This document shows, piece after piece, positions 4,383-34,325 of a DNA stretch of 37,256 nucleotides. The notes beneath the pieces were generated by a model. The model was not told the origin of the DNA, did no database searches, and saw nothing but the letters and a program-made list of their open reading frames with translations. Within the stretch, counting starts at the first letter, position 1. Every line of letters starts with the position of its first letter. The translations under genes and the position numbers were made by a program. The stretch is from Labilithrix sp. (lineage in GTDB: Bacteria; Myxococcota_A; Polyangia; Polyangiales; Polyangiaceae), in contig JAQBQJ010000548.1 in the NCBI GenBank assembly GCA_028287065.1, positions 1-37,256 on the forward strand, given 5' to 3'.

Positions 4383-4871
4383 TCACATGCCTGCGAGGAT
4401 CTTGAACGACTCACCGTCGGCAACGATCTCGAGGCGGTTGTCGGCGACGGTGTGCTTCCACTCCTCGCCCTTCAGGCCCGGGATACGGTAGCTCGCCGAG
4501 AACGTGTACTCGATGTAGATCTTCTTGTTCTCGTTGAAGGTCACGCGCCGGTAGCGGATCTCGTACCGGATCGTCTGCGTCTTCACGAACGTCGAGGTCA
4601 GGTAGTCCTTGAGGCCGTCGAAATCGATGTCGTCCTCGGGGTTGGTGTTGCCGCCGTCCTCGTAATACCGAGGGCTGGCAAGCTTGAGCAGACGCCCGAC
4701 GTCCTTGTCCTCGACCGCGTGCCGGTACTCCTCACAGAAGGTGATCACCTTCTTGTTCTCGCTCGAGTCCTCGACGTCCGTGTTCGGGATGTACGACTTC
4801 GAGCACCCGGCGGCGCCGAGCGACACGACCGAGGCGAGTGACAAAATGACGGCCGTTACGACGTTTCGCAT
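4383..4871 (-). CDS. NTF2-like putative lipoprotein
   Basis: A 162-residue protein with a clear lipoprotein signal: basic MRN, a hydrophobic core and LGAAGC with Cys23. The mature region begins with a helix (FCEEYRHAVEDKD, then LLKLASPRYYEDGG) followed by strand-rich sequence (IRYEIRYRRV, IYIEYTFSASYRI). This is the order expected of an NTF2/SnoaL-type cone fold. No catalytic residues can be assigned. A GGAG lies about 5 bases before the ATG. It begins 42 bases downstream of the second ketosynthase and 9 bases before the phosphoesterase, so it may be the anchored, ligand-binding member of the ketosynthase operon or head a two-gene unit. The fold call is inference. Confidence 0.75.
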   Translation of the reverse strand: MRNVVTAVILSLASVVSLGAAGCSKSYIPNTDVEDSSENKKVITFCEEYRHAVEDKDVGRLLKLASPRYYEDGGNTNPEDDIDFDGLKDYLTSTFVKTQTIRYEIRYRRVTFNENKKIYIEYTFSASYRIPGLKGEEWKHTVADNRLEIVADGESFKILAGM

Positions 4872-4913: not shown

Positions 4914-6872
4914 TTAGAGCCAGAAGAACCGCGCGTTGGCAAATCCTCCCCACGGAGTCCGCGCTTCGAGCCCGTCGGGGCGGAGTTTCGGGTCCGCGAG
5001 CGGCAACAGCGGCCGGTGTGCCTCGACGGCCGGCGCCGAGACGATCGCGTCTCCCTCGGCAAGCCGCGCGGGCAGCCGCACCGACCACGACTCGAGCCGC
5101 GCGGCAAGCGCGTCTTTCGAGACGAGGAGCGCGACCACACCGGGCCGCGTGGCCGGCGCGACGCGCCGCGAGCCCTCGCCCGCCTCGTCGACGGCGACGA
5201 CGACGATGCGGTCGGCGACGCCGCCCCTCACGAGATCGGCCGCGACCGCGAGCGCTTCGAGCCCTCCGTGCGGCCCACCGCCCACCGCGAATGCAGGACC
5301 GGTGAGGCCGAGCGCGACGGCGCATTCGCCCGCAGGTGCGTTCGGCGTCGTGTACGGGAACCGTCGTGGCTCGCCGCGGCTCGCGCCCGCGGCACGGATC
5401 CGCGCGAGGTACGCCGCGTTCGTATCGATGGTCGCAAGGCCGTGACCGACGAGGATGCCGGCGCCGTCGAGCGTCCCCTGCCCTGCCGCGGCGAGCTGCT
5501 CGCGGAGACGGACGACCGCGGCCATCGCGAGCCGCACGAGGCCGTCGGCGCGAGCGAGCTTGTCCTCGGCGTAGCCGGTCTTCTCCGCGAGCCCGTGCGC
5601 GTCGATCGCATCCGCGACCCCGTCGACGATCGCGACCGCGCGTGACACGTACACCGCGCGTTGGCGCTTCGTGCTGGTGCTCGTGCTCGATCTCGCGTCC
5701 GGCCGCGTCACGACCAGCGCAGCGTTCGCTCCCCCGAACGCCGCCGACAGCTTGAGCGCGGCGCCCGCGTCGTGCCGCTCGGCGCGTTCGAGCACGCGCA
5801 CGCCGCCCTCGATCGCACCGTCTCCCGCCGACGCGGGCGCGATCCCGAGCTTCATCGCATGCAAGGCAGCGAGCGTCTCGAGCGCGCCCGCAGCGCCGAG
5901 CGTGTGCCCGATCCCGCCCTTCAGCGCATGCAGCGGGACCTCGCCGAGCCGCGCAGCGAGCACGGCCCTCAGCGCGTTGGCCTCCGACCCGTCGTTGAAC
6001 ACGGTGGCGGTCCCGTGCGCGCTCACGAGGTCGATGCGCGGCCGACCGGCGTCGTTCATTGCCTGCTCGGCGGCACGTGCGAGGCCTCGTCCTTCGCGAT
6101 CGGGCGCCGTGAGATGGACGGCATCGCACGTCGCGCCGAAGCCGACGACGAGCCCTCGCGACGACGCAGCCGCGCGCGCCGGCGCGGGCACGTCGTCGCC
6201 GCGCACGAGCGCCATCACGGCCGCACCCTCGCCGAGCGCGAGACCGTCGCGGCCGGCGCGGAACGGGCGCGGGACGCCATCCGTGCATACTGCACGTAGC
6301 ACCTCGAACCCCGACGCCACGAACACGCTCACGGCGTCGAACCCGCCACACAGCGCGATCTCGCACGAGCCCGCGAGCAACCACTCGCGTGCGAGACCGA
6401 TGGCGAGCGTGCTCGACGCGCATGCGCCCAGGACGAACGCGACGGGCTCGAAATCGCACGGTCGCGCCGCGGCGAGCACCGGGCCGAGGTACGTCGCGGC
6501 CGCCGAGCCTTCGGCCACGCCGCCCTCCGCGAACGCGGCCTCGAACGAGCGCATGCCTCCGCTCGACGTCCCGATCGCGAGACCGACGCGCTTCGTACGC
6601 CAGCCCGGCATCGAGGCGTCGAGCTCCTTCGCGCATGCGCCGAGCGCGCGCGTGAGCAGGACCGTCGCGCGGTCGGCATCGCCTGCGACGTCGTCGATCG
6701 CGCGGACCCTCGCGCAGAACGGACGCGTGAGCGCCGCCGCGACGAGCTCGGCGTCGCGCGTGATGGCGACCGGCGCTCGCTCGCCGACGGCCCCGACGCC
6801 GAGCGCAGCCTCACCCTCGCCGAGGGCCGACGACGCACCGAACGCGATCACTGCACAGTCGCTGCTGCTCAT
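4914..6872 (-). CDS. Two-part beta-ketoacyl synthase (second copy)
   Basis: A 652-residue protein. The N-terminal 390 residues are a condensing enzyme of the KAS I/II thiolase fold with a complete triad: Cys151 (GACASST), His286 (SAHGTAT) and His323 (GGIGHTLGAAGA). A Ser/Thr-rich linker (395-405) leads to a second ketosynthase-like segment (about 406-652), recognisable from GECAVALGLTGPAFAV, in which the nucleophile region reads GGGPHGG, with Pro where Cys should be. The second half is therefore not catalytic. The expected reaction of the first half is decarboxylative condensation of malonyl-ACP with an acyl chain. Its ATG overlaps the TGA of the upstream lipoprotein gene. It shares architecture with the 765-residue protein at 7687-9984, suggesting duplication. 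Confidence 0.9.
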   Translation of the reverse strand: MSSSDCAVIAFGASSALGEGEAALGVGAVGERAPVAITRDAELVAAALTRPFCARVRAIDDVAGDADRATVLLTRALGACAKELDASMPGWRTKRVGLAIGTSSGGMRSFEAAFAEGGVAEGSAAATYLGPVLAAARPCDFEPVAFVLGACASSTLAIGLAREWLLAGSCEIALCGGFDAVSVFVASGFEVLRAVCTDGVPRPFRAGRDGLALGEGAAVMALVRGDDVPAPARAAASSRGLVVGFGATCDAVHLTAPDREGRGLARAAEQAMNDAGRPRIDLVSAHGTATVFNDGSEANALRAVLAARLGEVPLHALKGGIGHTLGAAGALETLAALHAMKLGIAPASAGDGAIEGGVRVLERAERHDAGAALKLSAAFGGANAALVVTRPDARSSTSTSTKRQRAVYVSRAVAIVDGVADAIDAHGLAEKTGYAEDKLARADGLVRLAMAAVVRLREQLAAAGQGTLDGAGILVGHGLATIDTNAAYLARIRAAGASRGEPRRFPYTTPNAPAGECAVALGLTGPAFAVGGGPHGGLEALAVAADLVRGGVADRIVVVAVDEAGEGSRRVAPATRPGVVALLVSKDALAARLESWSVRLPARLAEGDAIVSAPAVEAHRPLLPLADPKLRPDGLEARTPWGGFANARFFWL

Positions 6873-7690
6873 AGCGCCGTCCCTGGCTCGTCCGGATCCG
6901 CGAATGCATCGGGGTCGGGCTCCGTGGGGAGCACCTCCTCGACGACCACCTCGACGCGAAGCCCGAAGCGACCCTCGATGTACCGACCGCGCTCACCTGA
7001 TTGCGGCACGAGCCCTCGTGAGAGCCACTCGATGCCCTCGAGTGTCTCGCCCTCGCGGCGCAGCGCTACGAAGCGACGGCCGTCGCTGCGCACCGTGACC
7101 GTCGCGGCCCCGTCGCGGAGAACCCATGCGCTCTCGGCTTGCGACGAGCGCGCGAGGAGCAATCGACCTGCGAGGGGTGAGAGAAACCACCAACGAAGCA
7201 TACCGATCGGCAGCCCCTTCGCGTCCGCGGGATCGGTCCCACCGCGCTTCTCGAGCTTGATCGCCGGCACCGCGAAGCGGAAGCGTTCCTTGGTGACCCA
7301 CACGTCGAGCGCGGTCGTTCCTCCCGGACCGACGAGGATCATGCGAGCTGCGCGGCCGGGACTGACCGCGACGGCGCCGCGCGCCTGGTACCGACGTCCG
7401 GTGCGCGGATCGTCGATCGCGAGACGGACGCGTTCGACGAACGGCTTGTCCGGCCGCCCGCGACGGAGGCGTTCGAGGCGATCGCGCGCGATCGACCACT
7501 CGTACTGCGTCACGTCAGCGAGGATCGGCGTGGCTTCGGACGCGCCTTCGGGCGTGAGGATCTCGTACGGGGTCCGCAAAGACGCCGCCGTCGGCTTGCC
7601 GCCGCATCCGAGCATCGAGAGCGACAGGGAGAGCGCGAGACCCGCCGCCGCGAGGCCGACGCGGCCCGCGGGCCCAGCGCGCCCCGTCAG
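6869..7690 (-). CDS. Putative lipoprotein between two ketosynthase genes
   Basis: The protein has a lipoprotein signal ending SMLGCGG, then about 245 residues rich in beta strands (YQARGAVAVSPG, RMILVGPGGTTALDVWV, RFRFAVPAIKLEK) and an acidic C-terminus. The strand pattern resembles LolA/LolB- or DUF3261-type lipoproteins that accompany aryl-polyene-like clusters; I treat this as a weak family inference. No ATG, GTG or TTG precedes the signal sequence in frame. The best start is CTG at 7690, whose TG is shared with the TGA stop of the ketosynthase (CTGA), which would give 273 residues with Cys29 as the lipid site. The next ATG (in SMLGC) would destroy the signal. The stop overlaps the ATG of the following ketosynthase. 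Confidence 0.75.
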   Translation of the reverse strand: MTGRAGPAGRVGLAAAGLALSLSLSMLGCGGKPTAASLRTPYEILTPEGASEATPILADVTQYEWSIARDRLERLRRGRPDKPFVERVRLAIDDPRTGRRYQARGAVAVSPGRAARMILVGPGGTTALDVWVTKERFRFAVPAIKLEKRGGTDPADAKGLPIGMLRWWFLSPLAGRLLLARSSQAESAWVLRDGAATVTVRSDGRRFVALRREGETLEGIEWLSRGLVPQSGERGRYIEGRFGLRVEVVVEEVLPTEPDPDAFADPDEPGTAL

Positions 7691-9984
7691 GATGACCCCG
7701 CGCGCCAGCGTCCGAGCGTGATCGCGTAACCGGATCCGCGGGCGACGCCGACGCAGAGCACCGCATCGATCGAGCTGTCCTTCGCGAGCGTCGCCGAGGC
7801 GACCGCGACGGCGATCGCGCCCGCGGCCTCGTGCGAGCCCGCGCGGTCGGCGCAGGTGATGCGGCGGCACTCGCTCCAACCGGCGCGCGCGAGCACGGCG
7901 TCGATGGCGCCGGCCGCGGTCCCGATCACGACCACGGCGCCGCCGCTCGCTCCGCCGGGTGGCGGCGCAAGGTCGGCGATCGCGGCGTCGTCGTGCCACC
8001 ACGACAGAACGTGGTCCACCTTCGCGAGGATCGGCAGACCCCGCGCGACGGCGACGTCCTCGGCCGCGAGGACGATCGCGCCCGCGCCCTCGCGCCGCAA
8101 CGGGCGGCTCTTGGCCGACGTGTCGCGACGGTCGGGACCGAACACGACGCGGAAGACCTCGTCGACGATCGTGCTCTTCTCCTCGACTGCGACGACCGCG
8201 ATGCGATCGGTCTCGCCGGCCGCGACGAGCTCGTAGCCCTGCGTGACGGCACACTCCCCGGAGGTGGCGAGATCGGCGACGGCAAGCGTGGGGCCCGTGA
8301 GGCCGAGGTAGATCGAGACGTGCCCGGCCGGCGAGCTCGGCACGAGGCTCGGGAAATCTGCAGGGCTCGCGAGGCGCGCGCCTTTCTCGCGGAGCCGGCG
8401 CATGAATGCCGACGTTCCGTCGACCGCGCCGAAGGCGTTGCCGAGGACGACGCCGGCATCACCGTCGTGCCCCGCGCCCGGCGCTGCGCCGCGCACGACA
8501 TCGACCGCGGCGCCGCGCTCTCTGCCGAGCGCGCGCTCGCATGCGATCGCGGCGAGCCGCGATGCGCGATCGAGCCGGCGTGCGCGATCGATGTCGAGCT
8601 CGGCCGCGATGTCGTACGCGATCGCGTCGCTCTCCGTGGCGCGGTCGGGGACATCGGCGACGTCGAGCCCGCTGAACACGCCGCTCGGCGTGACGACGGC
8701 CGCTCCGGTGACGACGACGGAGCGAGCCTTCCGGCGCGCACGCGATGCGCTCTTCGCGGCATCCGCGCGGCCGAGGACGAGCACGGTATCCATGCCGCCG
8801 AACCCGAACGAGCTCGAGAGCGCCGCACGGATCGGACGTGATTCCGCGCGACGAACGTGGAGCAGCGGGCACTCGGGATCGGGATCCTCGAGCCCGCCCG
8901 TCGGCGGAACGATGCCGTTCGCGATCGCGAGGGCGGTGATCGTCGCCTCGATCGCGCCCGCCGCGGCGAGCGTGTGACCGAACTGACCCTTCTGGCTCGA
9001 GACGGGGACGCGCGAGATCGCGTCGCCGAGCACGGCGGCGAGCGCACGCGACTCCATCGGATCGTTGAGCGGCGTTCCGGTGCCGTGCGCGTTGACGTAG
9101 TCGATGTCCGCGGGCGTGAGCCCGGCTCGCGCGAGCGCCGCGCGCATGGCGCGAGACGGCGCATCGCCCGTCGGCTCGGGATTGGTGATGTGGTGAGCCT
9201 CTGCCTGCGCCGCCCATCCGAGGAGCGTGCAGACTGCATCTTTCGCGCGCGCTGCCGCGCCTTCGGCATGCTCGAGGACCACGAAGCCGGCGCCTTCACC
9301 GAGCGTGAGTCCGCGCCTCCGGCGATCGAACGGACGCGCGCCTTCCGGATCGAGCGCGCCGAGCGCGTTGAACCCTGCGAGCGTGACGCGGCACAGGGCA
9401 TCGGCCGCGCCGCAGAGCACCGCGTCGACGAGCCCGAGCTCGAGCCACGTCGCGCCGACGAGCATGGCGTTCGCCCCGCTGGAGCATGCGCTCGAGAGCG
9501 ACCGAACGCGCGTGAACGGACCCAGCTCGCGTGCGAGGCGATCGGTGGGCGCGCTCAACGGATGGCTGAGCATGCGCCGGAGCGCCTCGTCGCGGACCTC
9601 GGGATCGACCGTGCCCTCGGGGCTCAGGATGACCGAGAGCGTCGACTCGGTCTCGAGCATGCCCGCGGTGCTGCCGCCGACGACGAGACCGACGCGCTTC
9701 GGCCGCTCGCGCGCGTCGAGCGCGTGCGCGTCGGACCGAAGGAGCCCGGCCGACGTGAGCGCCTCGCGCGCGGCCTGCAGCGCGAGCTCGCTCGTGCGCG
9801 AGAAGTCGTCCGGCCCCTCGCGCTTCATGCCCGGCACCTCGCCGACGATGCGCACGCGGTAGCCGTCGGCCGGGAAGAGCGAGAGCTCGGTGAGCGCGCG
9901 GTCTCCGCGCACGACACGGTCCCACGTCTCGGAGGCGGTCGCCCCGAGCGCAGTCACGGCGCCGAGCCCGGTGACGACGATCAC
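7687..9984 (-). CDS. Two-part beta-ketoacyl synthase (first copy)
   Basis: A 765-residue protein from GTG 9984, chosen because MIVVTGLGAVTALG is the canonical start of KAS II-type enzymes and it follows the ACP stop by 4 bases. Residues 1-408 form a complete ketosynthase: Cys167 (SSACSSG), His300 (NAHGTGTPLND), His337 (GQFGHTLAAAGA) and a C-terminal GFGG. After a basic linker, a second ketosynthase-like domain starts at about residue 421 (RSVVVTGAAVVTPSG). At the nucleophile position it reads DLATSG, so Ala573 replaces Cys. The pairing of an active and a dead condensing domain recalls KS/chain-length-factor pairs, here in one chain. It should use the ACP encoded directly upstream. Product chain length and chemistry are unknown. 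Confidence 0.92.
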   Translation of the reverse strand: MIVVTGLGAVTALGATASETWDRVVRGDRALTELSLFPADGYRVRIVGEVPGMKREGPDDFSRTSELALQAAREALTSAGLLRSDAHALDARERPKRVGLVVGGSTAGMLETESTLSVILSPEGTVDPEVRDEALRRMLSHPLSAPTDRLARELGPFTRVRSLSSACSSGANAMLVGATWLELGLVDAVLCGAADALCRVTLAGFNALGALDPEGARPFDRRRRGLTLGEGAGFVVLEHAEGAAARAKDAVCTLLGWAAQAEAHHITNPEPTGDAPSRAMRAALARAGLTPADIDYVNAHGTGTPLNDPMESRALAAVLGDAISRVPVSSQKGQFGHTLAAAGAIEATITALAIANGIVPPTGGLEDPDPECPLLHVRRAESRPIRAALSSSFGFGGMDTVLVLGRADAAKSASRARRKARSVVVTGAAVVTPSGVFSGLDVADVPDRATESDAIAYDIAAELDIDRARRLDRASRLAAIACERALGRERGAAVDVVRGAAPGAGHDGDAGVVLGNAFGAVDGTSAFMRRLREKGARLASPADFPSLVPSSPAGHVSIYLGLTGPTLAVADLATSGECAVTQGYELVAAGETDRIAVVAVEEKSTIVDEVFRVVFGPDRRDTSAKSRPLRREGAGAIVLAAEDVAVARGLPILAKVDHVLSWWHDDAAIADLAPPPGGASGGAVVVIGTAAGAIDAVLARAGWSECRRITCADRAGSHEAAGAIAVAVASATLAKDSSIDAVLCVGVARGSGYAITLGRWRAGSS

Positions 9985-9988
9985 GGCT

Positions 9989-10288
9989 TCACCCGTTCGG
10001 TGCGGTGCCCGCCTTGGCGTCGCGCTCTTTTCCGATGAACTCGGACAGCGAGCTGACGGAGCGGAAGATCGGACGAGCCTCGTCGCCCTCCGGAACGCGG
10101 ATGCCGAACTTCTCCTCGACGAGCATCGCGATTTGCAACGCATCGAGCGAATCGAGCCCCAGCCCGCCCGAGCGCGACTCTCCGAAGAGCGGAGCGTCGT
10201 CCTCGATGCTGCTCGGATCGCGTCCGGTCAGATTCAGCTCCCGGACGAGGAGCTGCTTGATTTCACGTTTGAGGTCGTCACGTTGCAT
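9989..10288 (-). CDS. Acyl carrier protein
   Basis: A 99-residue protein. The phosphopantetheine site is Ser47 in GLGLDSLDAL, preceded by an acidic DDAPLFGE loop and followed by helix III-type sequence (LVEEKFGIRVPEGDEA). This is the usual layout of a type II carrier protein, and the GLGLDSLDAL form is like the ACPs of aryl-polyene and related clusters (family knowledge). It is the first gene of the ketosynthase run and lies 148 bases from the divergent enoyl-CoA hydratase gene, so the promoter should lie in 10289-10436, where I found no convincing box. No strong ribosome site precedes the ATG. The C-terminal tail (KAGTAPNG) is probably disordered. Confidence 0.93.
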   Translation of the reverse strand: MQRDDLKREIKQLLVRELNLTGRDPSSIEDDAPLFGESRSGGLGLDSLDALQIAMLVEEKFGIRVPEGDEARPIFRSVSSLSEFIGKERDAKAGTAPNG

Positions 10289-10436: not shown

Positions 10437-11231
10437 ATGGGCACGCTCGTCAACTACATGACCGAAAAGGGTGTCGCCGTCCTGACGCTCAACGATCCCC
10501 CGGTGAACGCCTACAGCTACGAAATGCTGAAGGAGCTCGACGGGTACATCCTCGAGGCGCGCTTCGACAACGACGTCCACGTGATCGTGCTGACCGGGTA
10601 CGGCGAGAAGTTCTTCAGCGCCGGCGCGAACATCAACATGCTTCGCGAGGCCGACACCACGTTCAAATACTACTTCTGCCTGCATGCGAACGAGACGATC
10701 TCGCGTCTCGAGCAGACGCCGAAGCTCGTGATCGCCGCGATGAACGGACACGCCGTGGGCGGCGGCCTCGAGATCGCGCTCGCCTGCGACATGCGCATCG
10801 CGCGCGCCGGCGACTTCCAGATCGGCCTTCCGGAGGTCGCGCTCGGCGTCCTTCCCGGCACGGGCGGGACGCAGCGGCTCGCGCGCTTGATCGGGAAATC
10901 CCGGGCCATCGAGATGATGGTCGAGGGCTCGAAGATGAACGTCGGCCGCGCCGCCGAGCTGGGCCTCGTCAACAAGGTCTGGTCGACCGAGTCGTCCGAG
11001 GAGTTCGTCCGCAAGGTCATCGACTACGCGCACGCGTTCTGTCCGCCGAACGGCGCAGCCATGGCCGCGGGTCGCATCAAGCGCGCCGTCCAGAGCGGCC
11101 TCGAGATGAGCCAGGATCAGGGCCTCGCCTTCGAGCGCGAGCTGCAGGCGGAGCTGTTCGCCTCCGCAGACGCGAAGGAAGGCCTGAACGCCTACGTCGC
11201 GAAGCGGAAGCCCCAGTTCCGAGGACGCTGA
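10437..11231 (+). CDS. Enoyl-CoA hydratase/isomerase family protein
   Basis: A 264-residue crotonase-fold protein. The oxyanion-hole segments are FFSAGANI (about 60-66) and GHAVGGGLEIALACD. Both catalytic glutamates of the hydratases are present: Glu112 in GGGLE and Glu133 in LPEVALGVLPGTGGTQRL. This supports true hydration of trans-2-enoyl-CoA, as in beta-oxidation or a related CoA pathway, rather than one of the family's other reactions. A GGAG lies about 10 bases before the ATG. It is divergent from the ACP gene and convergent with the lipoprotein gene whose stop is at 11239, so it is probably a single-gene unit. Substrate length cannot be told. Confidence 0.92.
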   Translation: MGTLVNYMTEKGVAVLTLNDPPVNAYSYEMLKELDGYILEARFDNDVHVIVLTGYGEKFFSAGANINMLREADTTFKYYFCLHANETISRLEQTPKLVIAAMNGHAVGGGLEIALACDMRIARAGDFQIGLPEVALGVLPGTGGTQRLARLIGKSRAIEMMVEGSKMNVGRAAELGLVNKVWSTESSEEFVRKVIDYAHAFCPPNGAAMAAGRIKRAVQSGLEMSQDQGLAFERELQAELFASADAKEGLNAYVAKRKPQFRGR

Positions 11232-12766: not shown

Positions 12767-14332
12767 CTAGCCCGCGCGCGCGAACAGCTTCGCGTAGTAG
12801 TCGCTGATCGCGTCGCCGCCGAGCCGCGTGAAGAACGTCGAGTACGCCATCCAGATGGCGAGGCCGTTCAGGTCGCGGAACATCGGCGGCAGATAATGCG
12901 GCGGCTTCACGACGCCGTCGTTCACGCGTCGCGCGAGCACCGGCACGTCCTCGTGCGCCACCTTGCCCACGAACAGGAACGGAATGAGATCGACCCTGTT
13001 GTGCTGGATGGCGCTCCGGATAAACGCGTAGTTGAGGACGATCCCCTTGCAGTAGCAGGCGTCCTTCGTGAACGGAGCGCCGCCCTCGACGACGCCGCCG
13101 CGGAAGATCCGACGCGTGTTGTGGAAGCACTCCTCCTCGTCGTAGCCCTCGGTGCGGAACCACTCGAACACGTCGATGAAGCTCGCGCCGTCCTCCGCCT
13201 TGTCGACCGCGAGGACGCGATCGTTCAGACGCCGCGCGCGCCTCGGGTACGTGCGGAACGTGAAGATCTCGCAGAGCGCCGCGAGGCCCTCCTGCACCGT
13301 GGTGGTACGCGGCGGACCCTTGCTGAGCCACTTGGCGACGGTCTGTGCCTGGCCGTTGAGCGACGTCGCGACATGGACCCAGCCCTCGTACACCTCGAGG
13401 ATGTCGATGTCGCGCGTCGAGAACTTCGCGCCGGAGCGGACCTTCACGTAGTCGCTGCCCGCCGCGGCGTCGCTGAGCAGCGTGTCGTCGACCTCGACGC
13501 GCACGGCGCTGTCGCCGAAGTACGCCGCGAAGCGCTGGTTCAGCTCGGCGGCCGCGTCGGGCGCCTCGATGGTGCGCTCGTACTTCATGCCGAGCAGCGT
13601 CTCGTCGATGTTCGTGAGGATCTCGTAGAGCAGGTGACCGAGATCGCGAAGCGACGTCTTGCCGTCCGGGAACTTGTCCTTGCACGAGCCGTACAGCTTC
13701 CGCGAGTACCCGTAGAAGAGCGGCGTGCCGCGCGACCCGAGCATGCGCACGACGTCGCGATACTCGATGGCCGTGCTCGTCAGGATGTTTCCGATCGCGT
13801 CGGACTCGCCGAGCTCGCGGTCGATCTCGCGCGCGATCTCCTCGAACTCCGCCGCCTTCTCCTTGGGGTCGAAGCCGAGCTCCTGCTTCGCGTAGTAGTC
13901 GGCGTCGGCCTTCGGCAGCTCGCGGAAGCGGCTCTTCCGGAACTCCTCCTCGATCGAGCCGTCCCAGCGGATGGCCTGGAGCACACGGATGGGGCGCTGC
14001 GCTTCGACGATCTTCGTCGCGATCTGCGCGACGATCTCCTTGTAGCTGCGCCACGGACCGGCGGCCGGCAGCGGCGGGATCGACGGATGCGGATCCTTCT
14101 GCGGATCCTGGAGGTTCGGGCCGCTCGGGCGATCGGCTCTCGAATCGGCTTTCGAAGCCGTCTTGCTGTCGGGGGCTGGGGGGCTCGCCGCCGGCGGCGG
14201 GACGCTGCGGCCGTTCCCGTTCTTCTCGGGCTTCTCGGCCTTCTCGGCCTTCGCCTCACGCTCCGGCTTCGCGTCGTCGGGCTCTTTGCCCTTCCGTCGC
14301 TCCGCTTCGCCCGACGGGGCTCGTTCGGCCAT
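12767..14332 (-). CDS. QEGLA-motif (DUF1704) protein
   Basis: A 521-residue protein. Residues 1-95 are a Lys/Glu/Ala/Pro-rich, probably disordered region with KAEKAEKPEK repeats. The remainder matches the family annotated as flavohemoglobin expression-modulating QEGLA motif protein (DUF1704). QEGLA is at 347-351, preceded by EVYEGWVHVATSLNG (313-327). In the related metallopeptidases such as MATCAP this segment reads HExxxH; here the first His is Tyr315, while Glu316 and His320 remain, so metal-dependent hydrolysis is uncertain. Three Cys cluster late (CYCKG and nearby). An AGGGA lies 4 bases before the ATG. It starts divergently from the beta-helix lipoprotein gene across a candidate operator. 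The 178 bases to the next gene hold no recognisable feature. Confidence 0.85.
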   Translation of the reverse strand: MAERAPSGEAERRKGKEPDDAKPEREAKAEKAEKPEKNGNGRSVPPPAASPPAPDSKTASKADSRADRPSGPNLQDPQKDPHPSIPPLPAAGPWRSYKEIVAQIATKIVEAQRPIRVLQAIRWDGSIEEEFRKSRFRELPKADADYYAKQELGFDPKEKAAEFEEIAREIDRELGESDAIGNILTSTAIEYRDVVRMLGSRGTPLFYGYSRKLYGSCKDKFPDGKTSLRDLGHLLYEILTNIDETLLGMKYERTIEAPDAAAELNQRFAAYFGDSAVRVEVDDTLLSDAAAGSDYVKVRSGAKFSTRDIDILEVYEGWVHVATSLNGQAQTVAKWLSKGPPRTTTVQEGLAALCEIFTFRTYPRRARRLNDRVLAVDKAEDGASFIDVFEWFRTEGYDEEECFHNTRRIFRGGVVEGGAPFTKDACYCKGIVLNYAFIRSAIQHNRVDLIPFLFVGKVAHEDVPVLARRVNDGVVKPPHYLPPMFRDLNGLAIWMAYSTFFTRLGGDAISDYYAKLFARAG

Positions 14333-21689: not shown

Positions 21690-21719
21690 AGTATCGCGAA
21701 CGCGTGCCGCGGATGTCAA
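21690..21719 (-). promoter_or_regulatory. Candidate sigma70-type promoter
   Basis: On the minus strand, TTGACA (21719-21714) is followed after 18 bases by GATACT (21695-21690), matching 6/6 and 4/6 of the consensus. It lies 28 bases before the ATG of the small gene at 21661 and would serve that gene and the pseudouridine synthase. Confidence 0.55.
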
Positions 21720-21901
21720 AGGGACCTCGTCGCGTGGTACGCCTTCAGCATGGATTTGGCCCTGCAGCGCCTCCCGGACGGCCCGGCAGCACTCGGCAGG
21801 CTGGACGAACCTCCGTCGTCGTGCTGCTCCGATCGCGGCAGGAAGTACCACCCGCGGCATGCCGGCTTCGCATGCCTGCATTTCTCCATGACTCGGCCCC
21901 G

Positions 21902-21914
21902 GTACTATCAGTAC
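21902..21914. promoter_or_regulatory. Inverted repeat over candidate -10 of the FAAL gene
   Basis: GTACT-ATC-AGTAC is a perfect 5-base inverted repeat ending 23 bases before the GTG start of the acyl-AMP ligase gene. It contains TACTAT (21903-21908), a 4/6 match to a -10 box, but no good -35 is visible. Just upstream, GCATGC occurs twice (21857-21862 and 21870-21875), spaced 13 bases apart. Operator function is inferred from position only. Confidence 0.35.
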
Positions 21915-21937
21915 AGATACGAAGCGAGACCGACCCC

Positions 21938-23803
21938 GTGAGCACGCGCACGTTCCCTCCCTTTCCGACCTTTGCGGCGGCCCTCGAGGACGCGGCCAAG
22001 GCCGACCCTACGCTCGGCTTCCGCTTCATCTCGGAGGACGGCGTCCCGGGCTTCGCCCCGAAAGCGCAGAGCGAGGCCTCGTTCTCGTACACCGCGCTCG
22101 AGCGCGCGAGCGCGCGTTATGGCGGCGCGCTTCAGGCGCTCGGCCTCCAGAAGGGCGATCGCGTCGCCCTCATCCTCCCTGCCGCGGAGGACTTCGTCCT
22201 CTGCTTCTTCGGCGCGATGCGCGCAGGCATCGTGCCCGTGCCGATCTATCCGCCGCTCGGGCTCGGCCAGCTCCAGGGTTATCTCGACAACACGCGCCAC
22301 ATCGTCGCGAAGGCCGGCGCACGTGCGCTCGTCACGACCGCGCAGATCAAGCGCATGCTCGGGACCGTCCAGGCCTCGTGCCCTTCCCTCGAGCAGGTCG
22401 TCGCGGTCGAGGCCATCCGCGAGTCCCTCGAGCCGCTCAAGCCCGTGAAGCTCACGGGCGACGACATCGCGTTCCTCCAGTTCACGAGCGGATCCACGTC
22501 ACGTCCCAAGGGCGTGATGCTCACGCACGCGAACCTGATGGCGAACGTGAAGTGCATCACGCACGACGGCCTTCACATGACGGGCGACGACGTCGGCGTG
22601 TCGTGGCTGCCGCTCTACCACGACATGGGGCTCATCGGCTTCGTGCTGGCGCCCATCATCTACCGCACGCCGATCGTGTTCTTGCCGCCGCTCCTCTTCT
22701 TGAAGCGCCCGGTCAGCTGGCTGCAGGCGATGACGCGTCACAAGGGCTCCATCTCGTTCGGCCCGAACTTCGCCTACGCGCTCTGCGTCAAACGCATCCG
22801 CGAGCGCGAGCTCGATCGGATCGATCTCACGAGCTGGCGCGTGGCGGGCTGCGGCGCCGAGCCGATCCGCCCGGAGACCCTCGAGGCCTTCGCCGAGAGC
22901 TTCGCGAAGGTCGGCTTCTCGAAGAACGCGCTCCTTCCCTCGTACGGAATGGCCGAATCGTCGCTGGCGATCTCGTTCACGGAGCTGTCCGAGGGCATGA
23001 AGACGCTCTCCGTCGACGGCGAGACGCTATGGGCGGAGAACCTCGCGAAGCCCGTGCGCGACGACGACCCGCGCGCCGTGCGCCTCGTCTCGTGCGGACG
23101 CAAGTTCGCCGATCACGACATCGCGGTGTTCGCACCGGAGGACGCCGAGAGCGCGACGCCGCTTCCCGAGGATCACGTCGGCGAGCTCCGCATCAAGGGC
23201 CCCAGCGTGATGAAGGGCTACTGGCAGGACGACGAACGCTCGCGCGAGGCCTTTGCCGGCGCATGGCTGAAGACCGGCGACCTCGGTCTCCTCCACGAAG
23301 GCCACGTCTTCATCTGCGGTCGCTCCAAAGAAGTCATCATCGTCAACGGCCGCAACTACTACCCGCAGGACATCGAGTGGGAAGCCAGCCACGTCGACGG
23401 CGTGCGCAAGGGCAACGTCATCGCGTTCGGCGCGCGTGACAACACCGAGCGCGATCGCGAGCGCGTGGTCGTCACCTTCGAGGTGCAGGATGCGCCGAAG
23501 CACCTCGATCCCAAGGACCTCGTGCAGCAGAAGCAGGCGCTCGTCACCGCGGTTCGCAAGGCGGTCCTCGACGGCATGAACCTGTCGCTCGACGACGTCG
23601 TGCCGCTCGCGCCCGGCGTCCTCCCGAAGACCTCGAGCGGGAAGCTTCAGCGCGCGAAGACGCGCGAGCTCTACGAGTCCGGCGCGCTCCTCGAACGCCG
23701 GAGCGCGCGCGACGAGGACAAGCTCTCCGTCCTGAAAGAGGCGGCGAAGAGCCAGCTCTCGTACTTCAAGCTCGCCGTCCTGGGCGGCCGCAAGAAGGAC
23801 TGA
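21938..23803 (+). CDS. Fatty acyl-AMP ligase (FAAL-like)
   Basis: A 621-residue ANL-superfamily enzyme from GTG 21938. P-loop TSGSTSRPKG (183-192), SWLPLYHDMGLIG, the adenine-site SYGMAES (335-341), LKTGDLG (444-450) and the C-terminal catalytic Lys569 (TSSGKLQ) are all present. The LPLYHDMGLIG, GNYYP-type and CGRSKEVIIVNGRNYYPQDIE segments favour the fatty acyl-AMP ligases, which activate fatty acids as adenylates and pass them to a carrier protein, over acyl-CoA synthetases. No carrier domain is fused. A free ACP is encoded 12 kb away at 9989 and may or may not be its acceptor. A longer frame runs to 21704 but its added sequence is not FAAL-like. It is probably monocistronic. Confidence 0.92.
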   Translation: MSTRTFPPFPTFAAALEDAAKADPTLGFRFISEDGVPGFAPKAQSEASFSYTALERASARYGGALQALGLQKGDRVALILPAAEDFVLCFFGAMRAGIVPVPIYPPLGLGQLQGYLDNTRHIVAKAGARALVTTAQIKRMLGTVQASCPSLEQVVAVEAIRESLEPLKPVKLTGDDIAFLQFTSGSTSRPKGVMLTHANLMANVKCITHDGLHMTGDDVGVSWLPLYHDMGLIGFVLAPIIYRTPIVFLPPLLFLKRPVSWLQAMTRHKGSISFGPNFAYALCVKRIRERELDRIDLTSWRVAGCGAEPIRPETLEAFAESFAKVGFSKNALLPSYGMAESSLAISFTELSEGMKTLSVDGETLWAENLAKPVRDDDPRAVRLVSCGRKFADHDIAVFAPEDAESATPLPEDHVGELRIKGPSVMKGYWQDDERSREAFAGAWLKTGDLGLLHEGHVFICGRSKEVIIVNGRNYYPQDIEWEASHVDGVRKGNVIAFGARDNTERDRERVVVTFEVQDAPKHLDPKDLVQQKQALVTAVRKAVLDGMNLSLDDVVPLAPGVLPKTSSGKLQRAKTRELYESGALLERRSARDEDKLSVLKEAAKSQLSYFKLAVLGGRKKD

Positions 23804-26765: not shown

Positions 26766-27173
26766 ATGATCACGCACGACCGGCCCGTTCACTTCGAGGA
26801 CGTCGATGCAGCAGGGATCGTGTTCTTCGCGCGGTTCTTCGCGTACTGCCACGACGCGATGGAGCGCTTCTTCGACGACGTCGAGGGCGGCTACGTGAAC
26901 CTCATCACCGTGCGAAAGATCGGCTTTCCCGCCGTGCACGCGAGCTCGGATTTCAAGGCTCCGATCGCCTACGGCGACGTCGCGCGGATCGAGGGCACCG
27001 TCACGAAGCTAGGCAACACGGCCGCGCATTTTCGCTTCCTGATGACACGCGCGCGCGACGGCGCGCTCGTCGCGACGATGAACCACGTCCACGTGTGCAC
27101 CGACATCCGCACGATGACGAAGCTCGCCTTCCCGAGCGACGTCCGCGCGTCGCTCGAGAAACACCTCGTCTAG
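26766..27173 (+). CDS. Hotdog-fold acyl-CoA thioesterase (YbgC/4HBT type)
   Basis: A 135-residue protein. The N-terminal motif HFEDVDAAGIVFFARFF is the active-site segment of 4-hydroxybenzoyl-CoA-type thioesterases, with Asp14 as the probable catalytic residue; the central helix and SDFKAPIAYGDVARIEG strand are also typical. It hydrolyses an acyl-CoA thioester of unknown chain. It follows the DUF3501 gene by 4 bases, so it is probably the last gene of the perR operon, although no redox role is obvious. Its TAG overlaps the TAG of the convergent Lgt-like gene in the shared CTAG. Confidence 0.88.
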   Translation: MITHDRPVHFEDVDAAGIVFFARFFAYCHDAMERFFDDVEGGYVNLITVRKIGFPAVHASSDFKAPIAYGDVARIEGTVTKLGNTAAHFRFLMTRARDGALVATMNHVHVCTDIRTMTKLAFPSDVRASLEKHLV

Positions 27174-32310: not shown

Positions 32311-33546
32311 ATGGTACAGTTCGAAGGGATGGCGGCTTCGAACAGCGCCGAGAAGGAGCCGGGGACGAGCTTTCGCCGGAAGATGATCTTCCTCGCGGTC
32401 GTGCTCGTGCTCGGCCTCGCGTATCTGCTGCGCGGCGTCCTCGTCCCGCTCTTCCTCGCATTCCTCCTCGCGTATGCGCTCGACCCGTTCGTCGATCGCC
32501 TCGAGGCGCTGCGCGTGCCGCGACCGCTCGGCGCGATCCTCGTGATGCTCGGCATCGCAGGGCTCGTGAGCGTGGTGCTCGTGTACGCGGTCCCGATGTT
32601 CGTCGACGAGGTGCGCGACGCATCCAGCGCCATACCCGATCAGATCCACGCGCTCCAGGCGCGCATCGAGCCATGGTTCGCGACCCAGCTCCACGTGAAG
32701 CTGCCGCATTCGATGGGCGATCTCGAGAAGGCCCTCACCGAGCGGATCCAGTCCGGGGGCGCCTACGAGAACGCGCGTTCGTTCCTCTTCGGCACGATCG
32801 GCTACGTCGGCGTCGCGCTGTCCGCGCTCATCGTCCCCGTGTTCGCGCTCTACCTGCTCATCGACTTCGATCGCATCGTCGAGCGCGTCGGGCAGCTCGT
32901 GCCGCGACGATGGTCGCCGCCGATCAGCGACGTCGCACGCCAGATCCACAAGACGCTCAGCGGCTACGTGCGCGGCCAGCTCACGGCGAACATCGTGCTC
33001 GCGGCGCTCTACGCGACGGGCCTCCGCATCGTCGACATCCGCCTCGCCGTTCCGATCGGCGTCCTCACCGGCATGATGGCCTTCGTGCCGTACGTCGGGT
33101 TCGCGACCGGCCTGCTCCTCGCCATGTCGATGGCAATCCTCGACTGGCAGGGCCCCGGCACGCTGGTCGGCGTCGTCGCCGTCATGGGCGGCGTGCAGGT
33201 AATCGACGCGATGGTGATCACGCCGCGCATCGTCGGCCGCTCCGTCGGCCTCGCGCCGCTCGAGGTGATCCTCACCATGATGGCGGCCGGGTCGCTGTTC
33301 GGCTTCCTCGGTGTGCTCCTCGCGGTGCCGCTCGGCGCGGTCGCGAAGATCCTCGTGCAGCGCGCAGTGAAGGCGTATCTCGCCTCGGAGTTCTACAACC
33401 GTTCGGCGGCGGCGGCGGCCTTGCTCCGGAGCGAGGCGGTGACGGTCACGACCAGCGCTCCACCACCTGCGGCTGCCGCGGTGTCTTCGGCTCCGACTCC
33501 TCTTCGTGGCGAGGCCGCGCGCGTCGTGGCGAAAGGAAAGCTCTGA
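32311..33546 (+). CDS. AI-2E family transporter-like permease
   Basis: A 411-residue membrane protein with 7-8 hydrophobic segments in the order typical of the AI-2E/UPF0118 family: two N-terminal helices (VLVPLFLAFLLAYALDP), an amphipathic extracellular part, FALYLLIDFDRI, SGYVRGQLTANIVLA, FVPYVGFATGLL and a final GFLGVLLAVPLGAVAKIL. Members export small molecules or exchange Na+ and H+; the substrate is unknown here. The tail is Ala/Pro-rich. The ATG at 32329 (after GAAGGG) is an alternative start. Its TGA overlaps the ATG of the next gene (TGATG), an unexpected partner for a permease. Confidence 0.9.
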   Translation: MVQFEGMAASNSAEKEPGTSFRRKMIFLAVVLVLGLAYLLRGVLVPLFLAFLLAYALDPFVDRLEALRVPRPLGAILVMLGIAGLVSVVLVYAVPMFVDEVRDASSAIPDQIHALQARIEPWFATQLHVKLPHSMGDLEKALTERIQSGGAYENARSFLFGTIGYVGVALSALIVPVFALYLLIDFDRIVERVGQLVPRRWSPPISDVARQIHKTLSGYVRGQLTANIVLAALYATGLRIVDIRLAVPIGVLTGMMAFVPYVGFATGLLLAMSMAILDWQGPGTLVGVVAVMGGVQVIDAMVITPRIVGRSVGLAPLEVILTMMAAGSLFGFLGVLLAVPLGAVAKILVQRAVKAYLASEFYNRSAAAAALLRSEAVTVTTSAPPPAAAAVSSAPTPLRGEAARVVAKGKL

Positions 33547-34325
33547 TGAGCGAAGTGACGGTCGAGACGACGGGGCGCACTGTGGTCGTGACGCTGAACC
33601 GCCCGGAGGCTCGCAACTCGCTCACGAAGCAGGTCGTGAAGGACCTCGCGTCCGCGATCGAGGGCGCCGGCGCGAAGCCGGAGGTGCGCTGCATCGTGCT
33701 CACCGGAGCGGGCGGTCACTTCTGCGCGGGCGCCGATCTGCGCCGCACGTTCGCCGAGGATCCCGACATCATGGATCACCTCGACGAGTACATGGACGCG
33801 TTCCATTCGCTCGTCCGCGCGATCGTGCGCTGCCCGAAGCCGACCATCGCGCAGATGGACGGCGCGGCCGTCGGCTTCGGCGCCGACATGGCGCTGGCGT
33901 GCGACCTCCGTGTGGCGAGCACGTCGGCGTACCTGCAGGAGAAGTTCGTCAACATCGGCCTCATGCCCGACGGCGGCGGGACGTTCTGGCTCCCGCGGCT
34001 GATCGGGACCGCGCGCGCGATGCGTGCGATCCTCCTCTCCGAGAAGCTCGAAGCAAAGGAGCTCGACGCGCTCGGCCTGCTCGCCGGCCTCGTGGCGCCC
34101 TCCGAGCTCGGCGCCGCGACGATGGCACTCGCCCAGCGCATCGAAGCGGGCCCTCCCCTCGCCTTCACGGCGGCGAAGAGCGCGATCTACGGCAGCCTGG
34201 GCGACATCGAGGCCGCGCTGAAACGCGAACGCGAGGGCCAGCTTCGCCTGTTGAAAAGCCAGGACGTCATCGAAGGCGTGATGGCGTGGGCGCAGAAACG
34301 CGCGCCGGAGTTCAAAGGCGCCTGA
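33546..34325 (+). CDS. Enoyl-CoA hydratase/isomerase family protein, PaaG-like
   Basis: A 259-residue crotonase-fold protein. The oxyanion segments are HFCAGADL and AAVGFGADMALACD. The two hydratase glutamates are absent (Asp114 at the first position, and the second is Phe or Val). Instead GLMPDGGGTFWLPR carries Asp142 at the place of the catalytic Asp of PaaG-type isomerases. An isomerase acting on unsaturated or epoxy acyl-CoA is therefore more likely than a hydratase. Coupled by TGATG overlap to the permease gene and convergent with the cysteine synthase gene (6 bases). The substrate is unknown. Confidence 0.9.
   Translation: MSEVTVETTGRTVVVTLNRPEARNSLTKQVVKDLASAIEGAGAKPEVRCIVLTGAGGHFCAGADLRRTFAEDPDIMDHLDEYMDAFHSLVRAIVRCPKPTIAQMDGAAVGFGADMALACDLRVASTSAYLQEKFVNIGLMPDGGGTFWLPRLIGTARAMRAILLSEKLEAKELDALGLLAGLVAPSELGAATMALAQRIEAGPPLAFTAAKSAIYGSLGDIEAALKREREGQLRLLKSQDVIEGVMAWAQKRAPEFKGA

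Follow-up and report, generated by a model that had tools for sequence, protein, structure and literature searches.

What can a short bacterial operon build when it encodes an acyl carrier protein (ACP) and two ketosynthases (KSs), each of which runs on into a second, KS-like half that lacks the catalytic nucleophile? The question is raised by a 37,256-nucleotide stretch of DNA from Labilithrix sp., a soil bacterium of the family Polyangiaceae. This stretch, which we call the window, is the whole of contig JAQBQJ010000548.1 (C419; assembly GCA_028287065.1) of a 7.1-Mb genome that is 72% complete. The genes in question, referred to here as the cassette, lie on the minus strand between positions 4914 and 10288 and are transcribed in the order ACP, KS2, lipoprotein (6869–7690), KS1. 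We favor, with moderate confidence, the view that they form a minimal highly reducing type II polyketide synthase (PKS), or aryl-polyene (APE)-type chain-building cassette, whose product would go to the outer membrane and whose missing steps would be supplied in trans.

Intact ketosynthases fused to halves without a nucleophile

KS2 is a 765-residue protein encoded at 7687–9984 on the minus strand, with a GTG start codon at 9984. Its first half (residues about 1–410) carries an intact Cys-His-His site made up of Cys167, His300, and His337, and its second half (residues about 415–765; 351 residues, encoded at 7687–8742) has the KS fold with Ala573 in the nucleophile column. KS1 (652 residues, 4914–6872, minus strand) follows the same plan, with Cys151, His286, and His323 in residues about 1–390 and then a half-size inactive KS half (residues about 396–652; 257 residues, 4914–5687) that has Pro534 in the nucleophile column. 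The initial annotation had listed both triads and had set Ala573 of one protein against a proline of the other. Its residue numbers are exact, the first triad being that of KS2 and the second that of KS1, and the proline is Pro534 of KS1. Each protein is confirmed to be an intact KS joined, in one chain, to a KS-like half without the nucleophile.

These features are shared by the relatives that were aligned (alignments A1, A2, A5, and A6 used 36 of 41, 33 of 36, 24 of 29, and 28 of 31 of the sequences at hand, window included). The KS2 triad is invariant together with Lys332 in all 36 sequences, as is the KS1 triad together with Lys318 in all 33. Cysteine never occupies the nucleophile column of a second half, which in KS2 holds alanine (16), glycine (11), serine (5), glutamate (2), glutamine (1), or aspartate (1), and in KS1 proline (16), leucine (13), or a single serine, isoleucine, alanine, or valine; one KS2 relative has a cysteine one column on, at 574. 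In the KS2 second half, Arg469 and Arg470 are kept in every one of the 36 sequences. They are putative counterparts of Arg30 and Arg31, which are described as conserved in ApeC (PMC8358021).

On its own, a profile of the KS2 second half matches FabF-type KSs at E = 8e-29, and that of the KS1 second half does so at E = 8.5e-15. As PF00109 is also matched at E ≤ 0.1 by 35 of 36 KS2 and 33 of 33 KS1 second halves, these halves are relatives of KSs and not chance resemblances. At the same threshold, PF13723, the ApeC family, is matched by 15 of 36 and 21 of 33, respectively, and the KS1 second-half profile weakly matches the APE chain-length factor (CLF) 6qsp_B (E = 8.8e-4). When 14 KS N-terminal domains are included in a tree of the second halves, all second halves and ApeC are separated from all KS N-domains by a split with support of 100/100 (approximate likelihood ratio test/ultrafast bootstrap), while the branching order of CLF1, CLF2, and ApeC, the first two being the second halves of KS1 and KS2, has support of 0/61. 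Our trees were calculated from a subset of loci, with aurachin and actinobacterial KS-alpha/CLF sequences left out.

An AlphaFold2 model of KS2 is confident (predicted local distance difference test, pLDDT, 89.9; predicted template-modeling score, pTM, 0.94). Its top match in the Protein Data Bank (PDB), found using Foldseek, is 6riw, the KS-CLF didomain of PfaC (E = 1.1e-45), which aligns with both halves over 904 columns at a template-modeling (TM) score of 0.77 of the query and a root-mean-square deviation of 6.7. Single FabF chains reach a TM score of about 0.49 in the same search, and from this difference we conclude that the halves of KS2 align jointly, in one arrangement. For KS2, the structure prediction that had been suggested as a check is consistent with a KS fold in the second half. 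Profiles and trees, together with the structural model in the case of KS2, support the earlier proposal that an enzyme/CLF pair has been fused in one chain, twice.

It could be argued that the second halves are scaffolds only, the KS halves being ordinary fatty-acid homodimers with the fused halves lying outside the pocket. The closeness of KS2 to FabF (350 bits against TIGR03150) speaks for such an arrangement, but alignment with the PfaC didomain over both halves, the invariance of Arg469 and Arg470, and the presence of separate FabF-type genes in cassette genomes G118, G121, G145, and G146 make it quite unlikely.

A conserved operon and its lipoprotein

Within the window's family, the gene order ACP, KS2-CLF2, lipoprotein, KS1-CLF1 is a conserved one, seen for instance in Sorangium, Polyangium, and Minicystis. 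Scored as present at E ≤ 1e-80, KS2 occurs in 72 of the order's 183 genomes, and the 108 genomes of the family account for 69 of these; some KS2 matches span the KS half only (G124, G068, G081, and G077). KS1, at E ≤ 1e-30, likewise occurs in 72 of 183 genomes (68 among the 108). The two are found together in 64 of the 183, and either one is present in 75 of the 108 family genomes. Gene order was followed at 40 loci, with starts at the junctions chosen by script; these loci were picked by their KS2 matches, and the counts are therefore conditional on KS2. In 39 of the 40, KS2 is immediately preceded by the ACP (gap of −4 to 104 bp); in 35 it is followed by KS1 in the same orientation, and in 28 by the lipoprotein. 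Overlaps of 4 bp occur at 9 of 39 ACP-KS2 junctions, 15 of 28 KS2-lipoprotein junctions, 23 of 26 lipoprotein-KS1 junctions, and 8 of 9 direct KS2-KS1 junctions. The ACP of the window itself (99 residues, 9989–10288, minus strand) contains a GLDSLDALQ phosphopantetheine site, and its PF00550 match of 33.1 bits agrees with the initial annotation, which had placed an ACP beside the two KSs. A second family (G050, G052) has the genes split, with ACP-KS2 and lipoprotein-KS1 on separate contigs of one genome. At locus L113 (G105:C4, 7797–10131), the lipoprotein comes directly after the ACP with neither KS2 nor KS1 between them, and KS2 is on another contig.

This conservation bears on the idea that the cassette is the decaying remnant of an APE cluster, which would explain why relatives of APE genes stand here without tailoring genes. 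A decaying locus is hardly to be reconciled with catalytic residues that never vary among the 36 KS2 and 33 KS1 sequences, or with a gene order that recurs, across many genera, at 35 of the 40 loci, and we regard this explanation as extremely improbable.

The lipoprotein encoded at 6869–7690 on the minus strand has a predicted structure of the LolA/LolB fold, a fold of lipid carriers. It is found in 55 of the 183 genomes, always alongside KS1 or KS2, and its carriers (31 loci) include Labilithrix sp., Polyangium fumosum DSM 14668, Minicystis rosea DSM 24000, Byssovorax sp., and Sorangium cellulosum So0157-2, So ce26, and So ceGT47. The lipobox cysteine is invariant in 24 of 24 sequences. The window gene has no ATG, GTG, or TTG near the signal peptide; at 7690 a CTG runs into the KS2 stop codon (CTGA), matching the 4-bp overlap seen at this junction in relatives, and this near-cognate codon is probably the start. 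Pfam returns two weak matches for the family, from one member each of the 24 (0.014 and 0.068), and DUF3261 is not among the Pfam matches. A BamD match (7.8e-5) was set aside, as it covers only profile positions 10–76 and includes the signal peptide. No second Lol-type component is present in the operon, which holds this one LolA/LolB-fold lipoprotein only.

A second lipoprotein (4383–4871; 162 residues, no Pfam match) follows KS1, and after it come a phosphoesterase, a MerR regulator, and a VIT/VWA protein. This second lipoprotein was considered as a pathway member and rejected. Of 377 phylum genomes, sampled evenly from a larger group, 200 have it, and many of these carry no cassette; in G120, which does, nearly 290 kb separate it from KS2. 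Its best E value against the PDB is 0.05. The assignment of lipoproteins to the pathway is therefore upheld for the one at 6869–7690, which goes with the cassette, and withdrawn for the one at 4383–4871, a phylum-wide gene outside the interval. The VIT-VWA protein (3–2015) runs off the contig end and is related, below the cut-off, to the marine sortase target family TIGR03788. Elsewhere in the window, the frame at 12767–14332 matches PF08014 with 427.6 bits; this is MATCAP, the microtubule-associated tyrosine carboxypeptidase, a eukaryotic family name in a bacterial host.

A literature search, to which subscription papers were largely closed, returned no description of the cassette. Two "arylpolyene" clusters are reported for Minicystis rosea in one paper (PMC8436480) and may include the cassette locus, and APE clusters are reported for some Polyangiales bins in another (PMC11821767).

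Descent, missing steps, and a proposed function

In a tree of the KS halves, KS1 joins the APE-type KSs (92/97), and a node with support of 93.5/98 unites KS2, KS1, the APE KSs, and a fusion from locus L097 that is described below. FabF, FabB, and ApeR all fall outside this group. L097 itself is weakly placed (46.8/85), apart from the other APE KSs. By their placement, KS1 and KS2 are old paralogues and not the result of a recent duplication. A KS of about 410 residues from another locus, L121 (G003:C14), branches next to the KS-CLF-type group (97.3/100) and not with FabF.

The substrate pockets add to this picture. At positions 108, 137, and 198 (FabF numbering), KS2 has Thr, His, and Thr in 16, 13, and 16 of 16 sequences, and the APE KSs have the same residues in 6, 7, and 7 of 7. 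KS1 has Ser, Ala, and Val in 12, 12, and 14 of 15, and this difference between the pockets suggests that KS1 and KS2 take two different substrates. Kinship with APE-type KS-CLF enzymes is well supported, and the term "polyene-type" used in the initial annotation gains support both from descent, in the KS and CLF trees, and from the KS2 pocket residues.

The same data help in judging whether the cassette is a non-reducing minimal type II PKS, in which KS-CLF and ACP would make an unreduced poly-keto chain that cyclizes alone or through unlinked cyclases. KS, CLF, and ACP are the genes present, the operon holds no ketoreductase or dehydratase, and the structural matches of the KS half of the KS2 model include the KS-CLF structures 6kxd, 1tqy, and AntDE (the VIA-align rows for this model reach residues 1–413 at most). 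However, the KS halves group with the KSs of reducing APE systems and not with FabF, in a tree without actinobacterial KS-alpha; the KS2 pocket residues are those of APE KSs; and no cyclase or aromatase family is found among the window proteins scanned. We consider a non-reducing system rather unlikely.

Several observations nevertheless weigh against an APE-type chain builder. Profile scans of the operon find no ketoreductase, dehydratase, acyltransferase, AMP ligase, or MMPL family, in line with the earlier remark that reductase, dehydratase, and acyltransferase are missing. The dehydratase ApeP (PF22817) scores above its cut-off in four of the family's 108 genomes, none of which has the cassette, and G104 is the only cassette genome with any match, below the cut-off; ApeI (PF22818) passes in 1 of 108, with 23 more weak matches below the cut-off. 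A search of six cassette genomes for FabA/FabZ (PF07977) gave matches in four, and G144, a single-contig genome, had none. The advice to look for the missing genes elsewhere in the genome led to no dehydratase, with PF22817, PF22818, and PF07977 all unmatched in the window's own genome at 72% completeness. The ACP scores 68.4 bits against NCBIfam PRK09184, just under the cut-off of 70. The FabF score of KS2 exceeds its 312 bits for PRK09185, and a phmmer search of the PDB with KS2 ranks FabF-type proteins first and ApeO (6qsp_A) lower. PF13723 gives CLF2 of the window 12.9 bits (cut-off 25) and does not match CLF1, and the second-half tree may suffer from long branches. Finally, of the 35 loci that have both KS2 and KS1, 9 show no lipoprotein between the two.

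With no reductive steps encoded in the operon, enzymes acting in trans would have to provide them. FabZ can be excluded as the general partner: PF07977 is not found in G144, and its only match in G146 lies within a 2549-residue frame. Nor is the enoyl-CoA hydratase at 10437–11231 supported as the missing dehydratase, as close orthologues (78–79%) occur in the cassette-free genomes G153, G154, and G107. An AMP-binding enzyme (21704–23803), a 4HBT thioesterase (26766–27173), and another enoyl-CoA hydratase (32673–34325) are each more than 10 kb off on the contig and show no sign of linkage. Around the 40 loci, tblastn searches with the APE reductase, ApeP, MMPL, AMP ligase, and E. coli FabG, FabD, and FabH (E ≤ 1e-6, 40% coverage; one query each and hence not sensitive) gave a single reductase-like (FabG/ketoreductase) match, 1.2–1.3 kb from KS2 at the Minicystis locus L052, and nothing else; as far as it was tested, the pathway is as compact as had been supposed. 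Ten unlabeled neighboring frames recur in 8 to 17 of the 40 loci and were the only ones annotated; they correspond to an amidotransferase, PDZ/C2, a pseudouridine synthase, a mannosyltransferase, patatin, PALP, or nothing, and none is a ketoreductase, dehydratase, or acyltransferase. The patatin-like phospholipase (PF01734), of a family present in 8 of 40 loci, lies near the cassette end at L050 (3864–5036).

We infer an acyl-chain pathway with the following division of labor. Each fusion would act as a single-chain KS-CLF pseudo-heterodimer, in which the N-terminal half condenses malonyl-ACP onto the acyl chain at the Cys-His-His site and the C-terminal half, having no nucleophile, gives shape to the acyl pocket and to the docking site of the ACP, as ApeC does in its pairing with ApeO. 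The chain would be carried by the dedicated ACP. KS2, with its APE-like pocket, is the likelier elongating synthase, and KS1, whose pocket is differently lined, more likely acts on another substrate, in the starter, first, or last steps. Genes outside the cassette, probably those of fatty-acid synthesis, would provide for malonyl loading, keto-reduction, and dehydration. An acyl or polyene chain on a lipid would result, and the LolB-fold lipoprotein would take it up at the outer membrane, in a role that parallels the one proposed for ApeN in APE systems.

More tentatively, it is possible that the cassette represents a Polyangiaceae-wide, largely vertically inherited envelope-lipid pathway that replaces APE, with a two-pocket KS-CLF relay on one ACP, reductive chemistry borrowed from primary metabolism, and a dedicated LolB-fold receptor. 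The cassette is widespread in a family rich in natural products, yet it lacks the tailoring genes that usually flag such pathways. Its product, and whether it replaces the protective aryl polyenes, are testable questions. KS-CLF enzymes are usually two-protein pairs, and a natural single-chain form in the cultivable genera Sorangium, Polyangium, and Minicystis would be handy for structural work and engineering.

Comparison with known systems

The APE pathway (ApeO-ApeC, the ACPs ApeE/F, and LolB-like ApeN) resembles the cassette in the kinship of its KS and CLF, in an ACP of related type, in a LolA/LolB-fold lipoprotein, and in having more than one condensing enzyme. CLF1 has 257 residues, compared with 239 in the ApeC chain of 6qsp. 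The cassette differs in that both of its condensing enzymes are KS-CLF and fused, and in that its operon lacks a ketoreductase, ApeI/ApeP, an AMP ligase, a glycosyl/acyltransferase, a thioesterase, and an exporter. The APE pathway is seen only in family genomes without the cassette: strong PF13723 matches (E ≤ 1e-13, our cut-off for APE) occur in 10 of the 108 genomes and in 0 of the 75 with KS1 or KS2 (Fisher test, 2.4e-6, uncorrected for kinship).

Five of the ten APE-positive loci were scanned with Pfam. PF00109, PF02801, and PF13723 lie in one frame at L090, L094, L095, and L097 and in two genes at L091, and a KS-ApeC fusion is therefore present in at least four. L095 is a full cluster with an ApeP-like dehydratase, a reductase, a second KS, and MMPL; L090 has no such tailoring genes among five proteins scanned, and L097 has only an oxidoreductase next to the fusion (two proteins scanned). 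Like the cassette proteins, these four fusions place the KS before the CLF in one chain, here of 670–705 residues; unlike them, they match PF13723 well above the cut-off. They indicate that KS-CLF fusion arose or was kept outside the cassette too. The idea that the fusion is unique must be given up, as a KS is fused to ApeC at other loci of the family, one of them a full APE cluster, and a KS to a CLF in PfaC.

PigJ of prodigiosin synthesis is a further KS/CLF-type fusion. The active KS of the cassette falls on residues 496–715 of the 759-residue PigJ model, by which the order of the halves looks reversed, and it scores 75 bits against a cut-off of 900. The polyunsaturated fatty acid synthase PfaC (6riw) shares with the cassette the order KS then CLF in one chain, with alignment across both halves. 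PfaC is part of a type I system and runs on into dehydratase domains (PMC3098273), whereas the cassette proteins stop after the CLF and have no dehydratase domain.

In cispentacin synthesis, as described in PMC10698177, the KS AmcF is paired with AmcG, a short partner without functional motifs, and enzymes of fatty-acid synthesis are borrowed, FabD and FabI being proposed to act in trans. The cassette could likewise carry out one round of elongation followed by ring closure, with the second half acting as a cyclization factor (CYF): the AmcF model matches KS1 with 136.5 bits and KS2 with 243.2 bits, and AmcG matches the KS1 second half (29.9 bits, E = 3.8e-7). These scores fall short of the NCBIfam cut-offs of 325 bits for AmcF and 80 bits for AmcG, however; AmcF and AmcG are separate proteins, the KS2 second half (351 residues) is far longer than the AmcG model (157), and the profile scans of the operon find no AmcH-type enzyme. 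Such a system is, in our view, very unlikely here. Since it has no tailoring genes and its PF13723 scores lie below the cut-off, we do not class the cassette as an APE cluster; though it fails several of the defining features of APE in these respects, it probably works like a reduced APE system.

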